Positions 1 to 7,097 are shown, numbered from the stretch's first letter. The stretch is DNA of 9,590 bases from Candidatus Poribacteria bacterium (GCA_016215705.1 JACRIR010000009.1:1-9590), one strand, 5' to 3'. The notes: generated from the sequence alone by a model not told the origin. Translations and numbers: made by a program.

Positions 1-645
1 ACCGACGAAGACCGCGCCTGTGATTCTGCGCGCCCACGACTCGAAAGCGGTGACCCTATCGAATACCTTTCCCACCGAATGGACGCCGGACGCTATGAGG
101 ACTGCGAACAGCGCCACCGGCACGGCTGTGCCTATCCCGTAGACCGACGGCAACAGAGCGGCAGAGCCCGAACTGACGGCGAGAGGAATAAGGCTGCCGA
201 AGAACAGCGCCGCCGATACCGGACAAAAGGAAAGCGCGAAGAAAATCCCCAGCAAAGCTGCCCCCACGATGCCCATTCCTTCTATACGACGCTTTATCGA
301 GTCGCTCAGGCCGATTCCGGGAAGCGAAAAACGGAAGACATTCAGCAAAAACAGCCCAACGAATATGAGAACCGGCCCAAGAATCTTGTTCATGTGTGTC
401 TGCAGCGCAAAAGAGATAGTCGGGGCCGAGAGAAGGCTCTTCGCGAGGAGGACGCCGAGGAGCAAGTAAGTGAATGCTCTTCCCACAGTATAGAGAATGC
501 CGCTCGCAAACACGTAGCGCGGACTGCCGACGCGTCTGCCGATGAACGACATCGCCGCGATATTGGTTGCCAGCGGGCAAGGGCTTATCGAGGTCAATAT
601 GCCGAGCCACAACGCTGAAAGCGCGCCCCAAAAGACTCCATCCAT
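1..645 (-). CDS. arsG: CcdA/ArsG-like membrane protein (3' end outside window)
   Basis: The frame is open for 215 codons from an ATG at 645 to the window edge, so the C-terminus is missing. It is a polytopic membrane protein with hydrophobic segments near residues 5-30, 45-70, 84-110, 128-155 and 160-190. SPCPLATN in the first segment carries Cys23 and LSFCPVSAA in the fourth carries Cys141. This is the cysteine arrangement of the CcdA/DsbD transmembrane family, in which the pair passes electrons across the membrane. The FCPVSAA form and the adjacent ArsF-like gene point to the ArsG family, described as an aromatic arsenical efflux permease. AAGGAG lies six bases before the start, inside the end of the preceding gene, and only three bases separate the two genes, so translation is probably coupled. 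Family membership is fairly sure. Whether it exports arsenicals or relays electrons cannot be settled from sequence. Confidence 0.85.
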   Translation of the reverse strand, partial: MDGVFWGALSALWLGILTSISPCPLATNIAAMSFIGRRVGSPRYVFASGILYTVGRAFTYLLLGVLLAKSLLSAPTISFALQTHMNKILGPVLIFVGLFLLNVFRFSLPGIGLSDSIKRRIEGMGIVGAALLGIFFALSFCPVSAALFFGSLIPLAVSSGSAALLPSVYGIGTAVPVALFAVLIASGVHSVGKVFDRVTAFESWARRITGAVFVG

Positions 646-648
646 GCT

Positions 649-1164
649 TCACTCCTTCATGAAGTCTGTCATCTCCGTTTGTACATAAGAGAAGAATGCC
701 TGTTTATTCCGGACAAGCTGCCACACTCTATCCAGGTTCTTCCATTTCGTTTGCTTCTCTTCCCGTACGGCAGAAAGAACAACTGATTGCGCATATAGCT
801 GATAATCATCCACAAAATGTTTATTCTTCGGAGCGGAGACGTCAATAGAACGCCAGACGAGCTTTCCCGTCGTAATCGCTTCCGCAAACTTCTCTTTCAA
901 TGCCTCTTCCGTGTAAGCCTCAATGGTGAGGCACGTCCTACACCGCCTGTCGCTGTGGAAGTAGTAAGCGACGACATGCTCCGATGGGCTGCTATCTTGA
1001 GATGCCGCTTTCTCCCCCGCCGGTCGGGTGTCCGCAGCCGACTTCGATTGAACCGATTGTTCGGCGGAAAAAACCTGTTGGCCCTCGCCCGAGAAGAACA
1101 TGCAGATGGCAATTATGCAGATAACCAGAAGAACGAGTATCGCTATTAGTTTTAATCTCATCAT
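649..1164 (-). CDS. arsF: ArsF-like membrane-anchored CxxC (thioredoxin-like) protein
   Basis: This is a 171-residue protein. Residues 6-24 form one hydrophobic segment after a short basic N-terminus, so it is either a signal anchor or an uncleaved signal peptide that places the rest outside the cytoplasm. A Ser/Ala/Gln-rich linker (about 25-62) leads to a domain beginning VVAYYFHSDRRCRTC, with Cys75 and Cys78 as a CxxC pair in a thioredoxin-like position. The length, the YYFHS...CxxC signature and the neighbouring CcdA-like gene match the family named nitrophenyl compound nitroreductase subunit ArsF. No flavin-binding motif is visible, so enzymatic nitroreductase activity is not supported by the sequence alone. 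The start is set by AAGGAG at 1172-1177, seven bases before ATG 1164. A second ATG follows immediately. The gene sits 83 bases after the Fe-S gene and three bases before arsG, in the same operon. Confidence 0.82.
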   Translation of the reverse strand: MMRLKLIAILVLLVICIIAICMFFSGEGQQVFSAEQSVQSKSAADTRPAGEKAASQDSSPSEHVVAYYFHSDRRCRTCLTIEAYTEEALKEKFAEAITTGKLVWRSIDVSAPKNKHFVDDYQLYAQSVVLSAVREEKQTKWKNLDRVWQLVRNKQAFFSYVQTEMTDFMKE

Positions 1165-1247
1165 GTGACTTCTCCTTTACAGCGACGGCCGCGCCCGAGC
1201 GGCATCCATACCACAAGCCAGCACTCGGCCGATTTGGTTTATGTCGA

Positions 1248-1784
1248 TCAATGTTGCCAGTCTACCTTTCCCAACATTCGGAGAATCTGGTCCCGTTTCT
1301 CCCTCATTGTCTCATGGAACAGTTCGGCGCACTTCTCGGTCCTTGTGTCTCCATTGGCGAGCGCTGCCGCAAACGCCATACACGTTGCAAAACCGCACTT
1401 CCCGCAGTTGTTCCTCGGAAGCAGCTTGAAAATGTCGAGCGGTTTCACATCCCCAATGCTCCGATCTGAAGGTTTTATCGTCGCTTTCCTCCCGGCTACT
1501 GAGTTGATCGTATCGCGAAGCCATTCAAAGACTTCCTTCGCCTCGCCCTCGTCGCGAAGCCCGGCGATGCCGATCTGTTTGGAGTATATGGCGATGACCT
1601 TCCCGTCTCGTCTAAACCGGAGAAACGGCAGAGTTTTGTCATACACGCAGGGGCCGAATTCCGCGTTCAAGTAAGGCAATAACTCAGTCAAATCGTCTTC
1701 AAATTCGATGGCGGCCGTCACGCTGATCTCGGACGGCAGGCACTCGGGCGGCGCCACATTCATCTGGTAACTCTCGAGAAGCAC
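1248..1784 (-). CDS. 4Fe-4S domain protein of the ars operon
   Basis: This is a 178-residue soluble protein read from GTG 1784. The C-terminal part holds a four-cysteine cluster in LLPRNNCGKCGFATCMAF and a later EKC: Cys127, Cys130, Cys135 and Cys152 (C-x2-C-x4-C-x16-C). This is the Fe-S motif (PF04060 type) found at the N-terminus of the corrinoid iron-sulfur protein large subunit and in related redox proteins. Residues 1-110 are an alpha/beta region I cannot assign. The open frame extends to an ATG at 1811, but that would overlap the upstream gene and has no ribosome site. GTG 1784 lies six bases after GGGAGG, which overlaps the upstream stop codon, so I prefer it. It lies between the ArsE-like and ArsF-like genes, which suggests it carries electrons for that pathway, but this is inference. 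No exact function is recognised. Confidence 0.85.
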   Translation of the reverse strand: MLLESYQMNVAPPECLPSEISVTAAIEFEDDLTELLPYLNAEFGPCVYDKTLPFLRFRRDGKVIAIYSKQIGIAGLRDEGEAKEVFEWLRDTINSVAGRKATIKPSDRSIGDVKPLDIFKLLPRNNCGKCGFATCMAFAAALANGDTRTEKCAELFHETMREKRDQILRMLGKVDWQH

Positions 1785-1790
1785 GGTGAA

Positions 1791-1796
1791 CCTCCC
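1791..1796 (-). promoter_or_regulatory. Ribosome binding site that sets a GTG start
   Basis: GGGAGG on the minus strand shares its first base with the stop codon of the ArsE-like gene and lies six bases before GTG 1784. It decides the start of the Fe-S gene in favour of GTG over the ATG at 1811, and it suggests coupled translation of the two genes. Confidence 0.75.
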
Positions 1797-2029
1797 TATT
1801 TCTTGAACCATTTCTCGATATCTGATGCCTTTGGGACTTTCCCCTCGATTTTTTTCTCACCATCGATGAAGACCGCGGGCGTGAACAGAACGCCCCGATT
1901 CACAATCGTGGTGATATCGGTCACATGATCAATGACGGCATCAATGCCGAGTTGTTTTGCAACCTTTTCAACTTCTTGCGAAGTCTTCTGGCACTTTGCA
2001 CAGCCCGGTCCGAGGATTTCGATTTTCAT
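1796..2029 (-). CDS. arsE: Small thioredoxin-like protein, ArsE-like
   Basis: This 77-residue cytoplasmic protein has the thioredoxin/glutaredoxin-like fold of the TM0996/MTH895 type. The active-site motif GPGCAKCQ places Cys10 and Cys13 in a CxxC pair after the first strand. TPAVFIDG supplies the cis-proline and following strand, and KVPKASDIEKWF is the typical C-terminal helix region. Such proteins are often encoded beside ArsP-type permeases and ArsR regulators and are thought to act in thiol redox chemistry. In arsEFG clusters a protein of this size is called ArsE, and I use that name by context. The start ATG 2029 is preceded by GGAGG at 2039-2043 with a nine-base spacer. Its stop overlaps the ribosome site of the following Fe-S gene. 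The fold is confident and the ArsE label is moderate. Confidence 0.83.
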   Translation of the reverse strand: MKIEILGPGCAKCQKTSQEVEKVAKQLGIDAVIDHVTDITTIVNRGVLFTPAVFIDGEKKIEGKVPKASDIEKWFKK

Positions 2030-3669: not shown

Positions 3670-3996
3670 TCACCGCTCCGCAAGGACTTTCTGCTGCTCC
3701 TTCAAGTTCTCTTGCATTACACGCTCGATGCAGCCAAAGAAATCCATGACGCACGGGCGGGTCAAACGATAGAACGACTTCTGGCCCTCTTTACGATCTT
3801 CCACCAAACCAGCCTGTTTAAGAATCCCCAGGTGCTTTGACACGGTGGACTGGTCACTGCCGACGAGATCGACAAGATCGCAGACACATACCTCTCCGCC
3901 TTTGCTCATGGCGTCAATCATCATGAGGCGGCTTGGGTGAGCCATTGCCTTGAGAATGTTGGCTCGCATTTCGTAGATTTTCATCTTTTTATTCAT
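3670..3996 (-). CDS. arsR: ArsR-family arsenic-responsive repressor
   Basis: This 108-residue winged helix protein of the ArsR/SmtB family would repress the operon until trivalent arsenic or another thiophilic ligand binds. ILKAMAHPSRLMMIDAM (about 14-30) is the N-terminal helical region. EVCVCDLVDLVG (35-46) holds the metalloid-binding CxC at Cys37 and Cys39, directly before the recognition helix SDQSTVSKHLGILKQAGLV (47-65). The beta wing is EDRKEGQKSFYRL. The third Cys of the classical ELCVCDLC motif is absent (Val42). Cys82 and Cys89 in the C-terminal helix region could complete the site. The start ATG 3996 has GGAG 12 bases upstream, a rather long spacing. The next in-frame ATG (3984) lacks a better site. 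A promoter and overlapping palindrome lie directly upstream. Confidence 0.93.
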   Translation of the reverse strand: MNKKMKIYEMRANILKAMAHPSRLMMIDAMSKGGEVCVCDLVDLVGSDQSTVSKHLGILKQAGLVEDRKEGQKSFYRLTRPCVMDFFGCIERVMQENLKEQQKVLAER

Positions 3997-4476: not shown

Positions 4477-4803
4477 TTGAGATTCAGATTCAAGGTGTGG
4501 GGCGAAATTGACGGTAAACCTCTTATGGGGCCGGGGAGATACCGCCTCCTTTCTGCTTTGCAGAAAACACGTTCCATCAATGCCGCAGCGAATGAGGTGG
4601 GCGTCTCATACCGGCGCGCATGGGCTCAGATAAGGGAAATGGAGAATCTTCTGGGATATCCGCTCATCATTTCGAATCGTGGCGGAAAGTCGGGAGGAGG
4701 AACCGCGCTAACCTCCGAAGCGATCAAGCTCATTCAGCAATACGAGAAGCTCTCACATAAGCTCAATGCAGCGATCAAAGCATCGGGGCGGCGGGTCCCG
4801 TGA
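4477..4803 (+). CDS. ModE-like winged helix regulator, DNA-binding domain only
   Basis: This 108-residue protein matches the N-terminal DNA-binding domain of ModE (LysR-like winged helix). FKVWGEIDGKPLMGPGRYRL (5-24) is the typical opening. A helix-turn-helix covers SINAAANEVGVSYRRAWAQ (33-51). The wing is NRGGKSGGGTALT (67-79), and a C-terminal helix follows for dimerisation. Classical ModE proteins are about 260 residues and bind molybdate through two C-terminal TOBE domains. This one ends at residue 108, so molybdate sensing is either absent or supplied by another protein. It starts with TTG behind GGAGG. It lies 54 bases before the FmdE gene and downstream of a palindrome-overlapped promoter, so it probably controls its own operon. 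A functional N-terminal-only regulator is more likely than a truncation, since the frame is intact and ends cleanly. Confidence 0.88.
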   Translation: MRFRFKVWGEIDGKPLMGPGRYRLLSALQKTRSINAAANEVGVSYRRAWAQIREMENLLGYPLIISNRGGKSGGGTALTSEAIKLIQQYEKLSHKLNAAIKASGRRVP

Positions 4804-4857
4804 AGAAGACCGGATGGTTTTTCTTTGATCCGATTCAATGCATGGAAAGGTGACATA

Positions 4858-5451
4858 ATGAATTTTGAAGCGCTGCTCGAAGAATCCGTGCGGATTCACG
4901 GACACCTTTGCCCGGGACAGGTTCTTGGCGTGAGAATGGCCATGGCTGGGCTGAGGGAAGCGGGTATATCCGATCCGAAGGGCGCCGACAGAAAGAATAT
5001 TATTGTATTCGTGGAAATAGACAGGTGCGCGACCGATGCGATTCAATCGGTGACGGGGTGCTGCCTCGGGAAGCGAACATTGAAATTCATGGATTATGGG
5101 AAGATGGCTGCCACTTTCGTCAATCTTCGCACCGGAAAAGCGGTGCGCATGCTTGCGCGAGAGGAATCTCGCGAACTCGCAGCCACCCGCTTTCCAGAAA
5201 TGAGTGACAAACACAAGGGGCAACTCGAAGCATACAAGGTTATGCCTGAATCCGACCTCTTCGAGGCAACCGAAGTGGAAGTGGACCTGGAGCCGGAGGA
5301 TATGCCAGGAAGGCCGGCTGGTCGCGTGAAGTGCCAGGAGTGTGGCGAGTATGTTCAGGACAAGAGGGAGATACTGGACGAGAGAAAAACACTATGCAGG
5401 CCCTGCGCACACGGCGGCTACTACCGTATCAGAGAGAAAGTCTGCTTATGA
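4858..5451 (+). CDS. FmdE-family protein with zinc-finger tail
   Basis: This 197-residue protein belongs to the FmdE family (PF02663), named after formylmethanofuran dehydrogenase subunit E. The core begins MNFEALLEESVRIHGHLCPG, with His14, His16 and Cys18 as putative metal ligands. It continues with VEIDRCATDAIQSVTGCCLG, containing Cys57, Cys68 and Cys69. The C-terminus carries KCQECGEY and CRPC (Cys159, Cys162, Cys180, Cys183), a treble-clef type zinc finger known from FmdE structures. Outside methanogens the role is unclear, but these genes often lie beside molybdopterin genes, so a part in molybdenum or tungsten cofactor handling is a fair inference. No dehydrogenase subunits are nearby. 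An in-frame start 33 bases upstream exists, but ATG 4858 follows AAAGGTG at the right distance and gives the family's usual N-terminus. Confidence 0.9.
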   Translation: MNFEALLEESVRIHGHLCPGQVLGVRMAMAGLREAGISDPKGADRKNIIVFVEIDRCATDAIQSVTGCCLGKRTLKFMDYGKMAATFVNLRTGKAVRMLAREESRELAATRFPEMSDKHKGQLEAYKVMPESDLFEATEVEVDLEPEDMPGRPAGRVKCQECGEYVQDKREILDERKTLCRPCAHGGYYRIREKVCL

Positions 5452-5460
5452 GGAGCATTT

Positions 5461-5511
5461 TGCCCCTAATTCGGGGACACCATGCGGCATGGTGTCCCCG
5501 AATTAAGGGCA
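5461..5511. repeat. Long palindromic repeat, copy 1
   Basis: This is a near-perfect inverted repeat with arms 5461-5485 and 5487-5511 matching at 24 of 25 positions around one central base. Its core is CGGGGACACCATG and its complement. It shares arms and a downstream AGTCGCC tail with a second copy at 7004-7050. It lies ten bases after the fmdE stop codon and could form a very stable RNA hairpin. Confidence 0.88.
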
Positions 5512-5541
5512 ACAGTCGCCGGTTTCTCGCCAGAAACATGG

Positions 5542-5561
5542 ATTCCTGCTTTCGCGGGAAT
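5542..5561. repeat. Small inverted repeat, ATTCCTGC/GCGGGAAT
   Basis: ATTCCTGC (5542-5549) and GCGGGAAT (5554-5561) pair around TTTC with one G-T wobble. The unit GATTCCTGCTTTCGCGGGAATGAC is a repeat type I recognise from intergenic regions of many environmental bacteria. A GTTTC/GAAAC pair lies just before it. Confidence 0.6.
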
Positions 5562-5590
5562 GACATAAGGTGATCGGTTGCTTTGTGATT

Positions 5591-5625
5591 GAACCGTAAA
5601 CCGTAAACTGTGAACCGTGAACCAG
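5591..5625. repeat. Tandem heptamers, RAACCGT type
   Basis: Five head-to-tail seven-base units are present: GAACCGT, AAACCGT, AAACTGT, GAACCGT and GAACCAG. They end eight bases before the ribosome site of the molybdopterin-binding gene. A related three-unit tract lies at 7171-7191. Confidence 0.8.
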
Positions 5626-5642
5626 TTCTTTCGGAGGCAGCA

Positions 5643-6725
5643 ATGTGTGAGCAAGATAGTGTGAGTACAGAACACTCGATGGGACACGCCTTCAAAACGA
5701 CGCCGGTCGCCGAGGCTGTGGGCATGGCGCTGGCACATGACGTCACCGAGATACGGCCGAGCGAGTTCAAGGGCAGGGCTTTCAAGAAGGGCCACGTCAT
5801 ACGCCCCGAGGATGTCTGTCACTTGCAGCGACTGGGCAAAGAGAAAGTGTTCGTCCTGAGCATTTCCGGGGACGATATGCATGAAGACGATGCGGCAAGG
5901 GAACTGGCAAGCTCGCTAATGGGCCCCGGAGTTGCTCTCAGCGGTGAACCCAAGGAAGGAAGAATTGATTTGCTGGCCGCGTGGGACGGACTCCTCAAGA
6001 TAAACGTTGCAGCCCTCGAGAGATTCAACATGCTTGGGCAGGTCATGTGCGCCACGCTGCACGACAGCACGGTAGTGCGAAAAGGTGACCGTGTGGCCGG
6101 CACTCGCGCCATCCCCCTTGTCGTCAAGCGAAGCCTTGTCGAGAATGCCGTCTCAATTGCCGGAGATGGGATTCTCGAAGTCATCAGAATGAGAAAACCC
6201 CGAACCGGCATTGTCATCACCGGAAGCGAAGTCTATCACGGCAGAATCAAGGACGGCTTTGCGCCCGTCATCCGGGAAAAGATAGAGCGGTTCGACGGAG
6301 AGATCGTGAAAATGAGCTGTGCGCCCGACGACGAGGCGGCGATCGAACAAAGGCTCCGGGAATGCCTGCAATCGGGAGCAGACCTTCTCATTACGACCGG
6401 AGGCATGTCCGTGGACCCGGAGGACGTGACGAGGTTTGCGATTCGGAAATTAGGGGCCGGGAATCTCGTGTATGGCTCGGCGGTTCTGCCCGGCGCCATG
6501 TTCCTTGTGGCATACATCGAAAGCGGCCAAGGAGGCGACTCCGTGCCCATACTGGGAGTGCCGGCCTGCTCGCTCTACCATAAAACGACTGTGCTCGATC
6601 TGGTCCTCCCACGAATTCTGGCAGGCGAGCGGATCGGCATGCCGGAGCTTGCCCGGCTCGGTCATGGTGGACTCTGCCTAAACTGCAAAGAATGCCGCTA
6701 CCCGGTCTGTCCCTTCGGAAAGTAA
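5643..6725 (+). CDS. MoeA/Mog-like molybdopterin-binding protein with C-terminal four-Cys motif
   Basis: This 360-residue protein contains a MoaB/Mog-type molybdopterin-binding domain at about 186-330. Key motifs are GIVITGSEVYHGRIKDGF (189-206), LLITTGGMSVDPEDVTRF (248-265) and PILGVPACSLYHKTTVLDL (302-320). The first 180 residues resemble MoeA-like N-terminal and SAF-like regions but are shorter than in true MoeA (about 400 residues). The last 16 residues hold Cys345, Cys348, Cys351 and Cys356 (C-x2-C-x2-C-x4-C), suggesting a metal or Fe-S site. It probably acts in molybdenum insertion or in handling of the cofactor, but activity is unproven. ATG 5643 follows GGAGG by five bases. An upstream in-frame GTG at 5610 falls inside a tandem repeat and is rejected. 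It lies 191 bases after fmdE, a gap made of repeats, probably in the same transcription unit. Confidence 0.88.
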   Translation: MCEQDSVSTEHSMGHAFKTTPVAEAVGMALAHDVTEIRPSEFKGRAFKKGHVIRPEDVCHLQRLGKEKVFVLSISGDDMHEDDAARELASSLMGPGVALSGEPKEGRIDLLAAWDGLLKINVAALERFNMLGQVMCATLHDSTVVRKGDRVAGTRAIPLVVKRSLVENAVSIAGDGILEVIRMRKPRTGIVITGSEVYHGRIKDGFAPVIREKIERFDGEIVKMSCAPDDEAAIEQRLRECLQSGADLLITTGGMSVDPEDVTRFAIRKLGAGNLVYGSAVLPGAMFLVAYIESGQGGDSVPILGVPACSLYHKTTVLDLVLPRILAGERIGMPELARLGHGGLCLNCKECRYPVCPFGK

Positions 6726-6936: not shown

Positions 6937-7003
6937 TGTTTGAGATTTACTCATTAGGAGCGCCTGACCCCGCACACCGCGGAGCTAACCGTGAAAGAAA
7001 TGG

Positions 7004-7050
7004 CCCTTTATTCGGGGACACCATGCGACATGGTGTTCCCGAACTAAGGG
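7004..7050. repeat. Long palindromic repeat, copy 2
   Basis: The arms at 7004-7025 and 7029-7050 match at 19 of 22 positions. The sequence shares the TTCGGGGACACCATGCG core of copy 1, and the similarity continues past the palindrome into AGTCGCC, so the repeated unit is longer than the hairpin. This copy is more decayed than copy 1. Confidence 0.85.
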
Positions 7051-7097
7051 AAAGAGTCGCCCGTTTATCAGTATCGAAGCGATTCCCGGTAAATACA

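Follow-up and report, generated by a model that had tools for sequence, protein, structure and literature searches.

The described systems closest to the locus analysed here are E. coli-type DsbD, CcdA, and the ArsEFG proteins. DsbD joins alpha, membrane and gamma domains in one polypeptide; in its relay, a thioredoxin of the cytosol comes first, the cysteine pair in the membrane second and a thioredoxin-like domain on the outside last. The arsEFG set follows the same order; it differs from DsbD in consisting of separate genes, in having no alpha domain, in having a donor encoded in the operon, and in having an outer domain that mostly lacks the cis-proline of thioredoxins. As its parts are encoded by three genes in our locus, and the fusions found elsewhere join two parts, the set is not itself a DsbD. 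CcdA (5vkv) and the DsbD membrane domain (PF02683) resemble ArsG in having a six-helix core with cysteines at helix breaks in helices 1 and 4, an N-out/C-out charge pattern, and in being paired with a thioredoxin in the cytosol and a protein of thioredoxin fold outside it. ArsG departs from them in its Pfam family, which is the sister family PF13386 (DsbD_2), in the order of Cys and Pro in helix 4 (C-P instead of P-C), in a conserved motif of its own (SPCPLAxN), and in having partners dedicated to ars. The ArsEFG proteins of Chen, Zhang and Rosen 2019, which we take to be from Shewanella putrefaciens, reportedly act in nitroreduction and efflux. Our locus shares with them the same three family names by profile, and differs in that its operon adds an Fe-S protein and an ArsP permease and in the relay role that we propose for it.

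In PMC9144182, ArsG appears among efflux transporters, and ArsE and ArsF among organoarsenical resistance proteins. The LysE superfamily includes both carriers and DsbD (PMC4608589). In 2010, a DsbD homologue and two thioredoxin-like proteins were described in ars operons, and electron transfer was suggested; the authors linked these proteins to cytosolic ArsC and, because ArsC is cytosolic, rated transmembrane electron flow as less likely (PMC2963123). The general idea of a relay was thus partly anticipated; unlike that study, we add evidence from topology, fusions, selenocysteine forms and replacement of ArsG by CcdA-type proteins, all of which are new as far as our literature search reached.

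The window, that is, the whole stretch of DNA analysed (9590 bp), is the entire contig C188 of a 5.5-Mb assembly. On its minus strand it carries an operon in the order ArsR, ArsP_1 permease, ArsE, Fe-S protein, ArsF, ArsG (Table 1). ArsE and ArsF are not adjacent, as the gene for the Fe-S protein, which was absent from an earlier sequence-only reading of this DNA, lies between them; relatives of this protein occur within the same operon at five other loci (L005, L006, L007, L074 and L075), and it possibly provides electron input on the cytosolic side. Of the operon's products, the ArsP_1-type permease is the more likely exporter of arsenicals. The contig ends before the gene for ArsG is complete, so that ~16 residues are missing at the C terminus of the protein. 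Elsewhere in the window, consecutive genes for a LysR-type HTH protein, an FmdE-type protein and a protein with a molybdopterin-binding domain (4477-6725) form a probable molybdenum-linked cluster, and a 67-nt sequence with an internal palindrome (GGGGACACCATGCGGCATGGTGTCCCC) is present in two copies (5462-5528 and 7003-7069) and is likely a dispersed repeat.

Table 1. Genes of the ars operon in the window, with the profiles that they match
Feature	Coordinates	Strand	Profile match
ArsR-type metalloregulator, first gene of the operon	3670..3996	-	NF033788, E 5.3e-27
ArsP_1-type permease, 389 aa	2182..3351	-	PF03773, E 1.9e-75
ArsE, cytosolic thioredoxin-like, 77 aa, CAKC (C10/C13)	1796..2029	-	TIGR00412, PF13192
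Fe-S-domain protein, 187 aa, CGKCGFATC...C	1248..1811	-	PF04060, E 1.7e-12
ArsF, 171 aa, membrane-anchored, RCRTC (C75/C78)	649..1164	-	NF040494
ArsG, C23/C141, 3' end missing at contig end	1..645	-	NF040495, PF13386

All three proteins of interest scored above the curated cut-offs of their families: ArsE with TIGR00412, the MTH895/ArsE family (92.3 bits, cut-off 62, E = 1.9e-26), ArsF with NF040494 (117.9 bits, cut-off 60, E = 2.4e-34), and ArsG, despite its truncation, with NF040495 (270.7 bits, cut-off 200, E = 8.1e-81). ArsE also matched PF13192 (E = 1.6e-25) and MTH895 itself (1ilo, E = 7.7e-13). ArsG further belongs to PF13386 (52.8 bits, gathering cut-off 24.9, E = 6e-14), which was the sole Pfam family reported for it at E <= 0.001; there was no direct match to PF02683 (CcdA/DsbD_TM) at that threshold, and the kinship of ArsG to that family is one of profile-profile and structural similarity. 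Homologues came from a Prevotella plasmid and from the genomes surrounding loci whose titles name Fibrobacteres, Desulfobacteraceae, Victivallaceae and Planctomycetota, and the phyla sampled are those inferred from these titles; one plasmid row was left out of the alignments used for structure prediction.

The sequence-only reading had proposed a split DsbD-like relay with redox cysteines at ArsE C10/C13, ArsG C23/C141 and ArsF C75/C78, and had named loss of either ArsG cysteine across homologues as grounds for rejecting it. All of these residues are where it had placed them, and neither ArsG cysteine is lost. In a first set of homologues, every copy that could be read at the position had the cysteine (62/62 for C23, 61/61 for C141); in a second set of 52 further sequences from two other phyla, both were present in 51/51 readable copies. 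Apparent losses in L044, L045, L157 and L159 were rejected, these copies being frameshifted or truncated. The ArsG of the window has two cysteines in all, and both fall among the 10-12 invariant columns of ~230, so their placement is beyond chance. The other pairs are all but invariant as well: C75 and C78 of ArsF are invariant in the first set of homologues (64/64 and 66/66), and C10 and C13 of ArsE are kept in 47/48 and 48/48 homologues; two further ArsF cysteines, C16 and C21 of its helix, are not conserved. Both ArsG-type cysteines are also kept by copper-linked DsbD_2 relatives that occur without ArsF. Conservation alone is therefore no proof of a relay for arsenic; as these relatives show, the cysteine pair is a feature of a broader family whose members are likely to carry electrons. 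No relative of ArsG was found in the viral contigs that we searched.

Searches of the PDB by sequence returned a chance match for ArsG and, for ArsF, nothing better than weak redoxin-like matches, and we therefore turned to fold comparison. For ArsG, the model was built on the nearest complete orthologue, a protein of 231 aa from a genome of the same family that is 84% identical to the window protein. The model has six helices, two of which are interrupted (helix 1 at residue 21, by C23, and helix 4 at residues 139-141, by C141); the arrangement of six helices with one conserved cysteine in each of helices 1 and 4 is that of CcdA, and is borne out by more than 100 homologues. In a Foldseek search the top match was CcdA (5vkv, probability 1.00, E = 0.0057); the next match had a probability of 0.16, which leaves CcdA as the sole credible PDB match of the model. 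VIA gave a Z of 7.2 over 193 residues for the comparison with CcdA, a value that is not decisive because such values are common for helical bundles, and subunits of the NqrE/RnfA type fell in the same range; these are membrane redox proteins too. Profile-profile comparison by hhalign related ArsG to the CcdA/DsbD membrane domains at 99.3% over the full length; C23 aligned with its CcdA counterpart, whereas C141 was shifted by one residue (CP vs PC). This shift and the VIA Z value are the weaker sides of the match between ArsG and CcdA. The mean number of Lys and Arg residues per terminal or loop segment, from N to C terminus, alternates (0.0/2.7/0.3/3.6/0.7/4.2/0.2), which predicts an N-out/C-out topology, as in CcdA.

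ArsF has an N-terminal membrane helix (residues 2-24), a linker, and a domain (residues 61-170) that is predicted to adopt a thioredoxin fold. An AF2 model based on a 39-row alignment has pLDDT values of 96-99 over most of this domain and places C75 immediately before its first helix (76-92), such that the CxxC lies where that helix begins, as in thioredoxins. Comparison of the model with thioredoxins gave VIA Z values of 10-11, with best rows at ~2.1-2.8 A over 87-100 residues. The cis-Pro of thioredoxins is absent in 36/39 ArsF sequences, and the remaining 3/39 have Pro at that column; the gamma domain of DsbD has this residue, unlike most ArsF. The charge distribution about the helix (mean net charge +1.9 before it versus +0.6 after it, with 33 of 48 sequences biased in this direction and six against), leaders that by eye are signal-peptide-like (L006, L091) or lipobox-like (L005), and the natural fusions described below all lead us to predict that the CxxC domain lies outside the membrane. 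ArsF matched no Pfam family, and its model, being a thioredoxin fold, is not that of a flavin nitroreductase or other FMN protein. Two suggestions of the sequence-only reading, that ArsF is membrane-anchored with its CxxC facing outward and that it fits poorly with a cytoplasmic nitroreductase, are upheld by these predictions, and the topology predicted here is not the cytoplasmic one that it had named as grounds for rejecting the relay. In three loci (L112, L160 and L161), the ArsF domain is found at the C-terminal end of long frames (450-575 aa), behind a large N-terminal portion.

Natural fusions agree with the proposed topology, as judged from their sequences. In six genomes, ArsE is fused to ArsF in the order ArsE, Cys-rich linker, helix, ArsF, with Lys/Arg directly before the helix; such a polypeptide would place one thioredoxin inside the membrane barrier and one outside it, and the two would need a membrane carrier to exchange electrons. 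In one genome (L135), ArsF and ArsG form one continuous frame, with ArsF attached at the N-out terminus of ArsG. Long ArsG frames in L027, L042, L036 and L134 were not counted as fusions, as they are out-of-frame readings of the upstream gene. ArsE by sequence has neither a signal nor a hydrophobic leader.

When the first residue of a CxxC alternates between Sec and Cys, this usually marks a catalytic redox thiol. In two genomes, a UGA codon lies exactly at ArsF Cys75 (L039:2465 and L040:2499, minus strand), and both genes have a SECIS-like hairpin of 8 bp with a 3-base loop that starts at the 19th base after the UGA. As controls, hairpins of at least 7 bp at a comparable place were found in 6/103 fragments that match the Cys-ArsF motif, and an 8-bp hairpin was formed by 2-4% of synonymous recodings. 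Both genomes carry a tRNA-Sec gene, and on these sequence features their ArsF proteins are apparent selenoproteins. UGA is likewise found at ArsE Cys10 in seven genes (L192-L198), with SECIS-like hairpins downstream; tRNA-Sec was present in both of the two genomes checked of the seven. These copies were found by a search for ArsE and do not lie beside ArsF/ArsG. A 2026 catalogue of prokaryotic selenoproteins contains thioredoxin-like selenoproteins of PF13192, and NF040494 and TIGR00412 are absent from it (PMC13188914).

Among 47 loci examined, ArsF was present in 47, ArsG in 46, ArsE in 44, and an ArsP-type permease in 40, and ArsF directly precedes ArsG in 44. In a Desulfobacteraceae-centred sample of ~294 genomes, 29 have both ArsF and ArsG, three ArsF alone and one ArsG alone (P = 1e-35); two of the ArsF-only genomes (G008, G167) were discarded as cases of true ArsG absence, their loci being cut by contig ends. 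Only two intact ArsF loci without ArsG were found, and both have a CcdA/DsbD-type protein at the place expected for ArsG: in L203, from the same Desulfobacteraceae-centred sample, a PF02683 CcdA-type protein fused to a thioredoxin lies beside ArsF, and in L111, from the Victivallaceae-centred sample, a PF02683 CcdA-type protein does so. ArsE-type proteins are far more widespread, in 202 of 294 genomes of the Desulfobacteraceae-centred sample versus ~30 with ArsF/ArsG; because they are common without ArsF/ArsG and mostly lie beside a permease, ArsE may serve the permease.

Some operons contain further redox proteins. In L006 and L007, the gene just upstream of ArsF encodes a CoA-disulfide-reductase-type flavin NAD(P)H:disulfide reductase, and extracytoplasmic thioredoxins are added in L106, L109, L005 and L111. 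In L074, which is from a genome of the same family as that of the window, a single protein that combines multihaem cytochrome c and cytochrome b561-type parts (757 aa; L074:9316-11586) is encoded inside the ars operon, and a lipoprotein-like protein with the motif CPCTREQC and no Pfam match (L074:8111-8599; also present in L075) adjoins ArsF. A 932-aa open frame, also with no Pfam match, lies between a long ArsE and ArsF in L087 (8474-11269). HgcA/HgcB are the mercury-methylation pair, and in L111:2049-7952 the genes for ArsR, ArsP, ArsE, an anchored thioredoxin, CcdA and ArsF stand directly upstream of them, an arrangement that may connect the redox chemistry of arsenic with that of mercury.

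On the strength of these sequence and model comparisons, we consider it likely that ArsE, ArsG and ArsF form a dedicated outward relay for thiol electrons, resembling a DsbD split into pieces. The split relay put forward in the sequence-only reading is thereby largely supported, by the conserved cysteines, the predicted folds of ArsF and ArsG, the charge-based topology, the fusions, Sec at redox positions, the linkage of ArsF with ArsG, CcdA in place of ArsG, and the disulfide reductases upstream of ArsF in L006 and L007. We infer the electron transfer, its direction and its partners as follows. ArsE would draw electrons from the NAD(P)H/disulfide-reductase pool of the cell and reduce the C23-C141 disulfide within the membrane protein ArsG, which, as a CcdA-like six-helix protein of the DsbD_2 family, would hand them on to ArsF, whose thioredoxin-fold domain would receive them at its CxxC (or UxxC). 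From its anchorage on the outer face, ArsF would then reduce an external target. The likeliest candidates are a thiol-reactive arsenical, an adduct of such an arsenical, or the machinery for arsenical export on its outer side; export itself would be carried out by the ArsP-type permease of the operon. That the terminal step is extracytoplasmic reduction of organoarsenicals or of arsenical-thiol adducts is a tentative suggestion.

According to the annotation, ArsG would be the permease through which trivalent aminoaryl arsenicals leave the cell, and its substrate would be made in the cytosol by ArsE and ArsF as nitroreductase subunits. The two invariant cysteines of ArsG might also coordinate As(III), in the manner of known arsenical transporters, and since the LysE superfamily is also mixed, holding carriers as well as DsbD, ArsG could still be a transporter. 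The names given to NF040494 and NF040495 by NCBIfam, and the listing of the three proteins in PMC9144182, which cites Chen, Zhang and Rosen 2019, accord with such roles. ArsF, however, has a predicted thioredoxin fold, no flavin fold, and a predicted location outside; the closest solved fold to ArsG is CcdA, which takes its place in two loci, and most loci already have an ArsP-type permease. Nitroaryl arsenicals, moreover, are mainly synthetic, whereas the genes occur in ~7-14% of sampled genomes from four phyla. Taken as a whole, we find the annotated roles unlikely.

Two other possibilities retain parts of the relay. In one, ArsG would be a CcdA-type carrier that also passes arsenicals, and ArsF and ArsE would deal with both electrons and As(III) thiolates. 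The Cys-rich linkers of the ArsE-ArsF fusions could bind As(III), and the rarity of cis-Pro in ArsF is also in keeping with this, as a change of cis-Pro is reported to let thioredoxins bind metal; however, Sec at C75 and C10 points to redox use, and beyond its two cysteines, which are shared with the copper-linked relatives, we saw no conserved pattern in ArsG that could be assigned to As(III). We regard a dual function as improbable. The relay could also be real but serve general extracytoplasmic thiol repair or cytochrome maturation, hitch-hiking in ars operons. Its parts are generic redox proteins, and the cytochrome c/cytochrome b protein in the operon of the related genome (L074) would suit such a role; against this, the genome of the window has a DsbD of its own (G000:C229), so the arsEFG set is not its general one, and ArsF/ArsG loci are found mostly with ArsR and ArsP and often with Acr3 and ArsC. 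We hold such hitch-hiking, too, to be improbable, and favour the dedicated outward relay.

It is conceivable, and we put it forward with reserve, that ArsEFG, rather than being a nitroreductase plus a pump, is a transmembrane electron relay with Sec variants, present in several phyla, that reduces organoarsenicals outside the cytoplasm with electrons from cytosolic thiols. The fusions, selenocysteine forms and CcdA replacements are ready-made constructs for tests. If the relay interpretation is correct, the names of two database families (nitroreductase subunit and arsenical pump) would mislead for many bacterial proteins, and arsenic resistance would gain a step outside the cytoplasm that is driven by cytosolic thiols.
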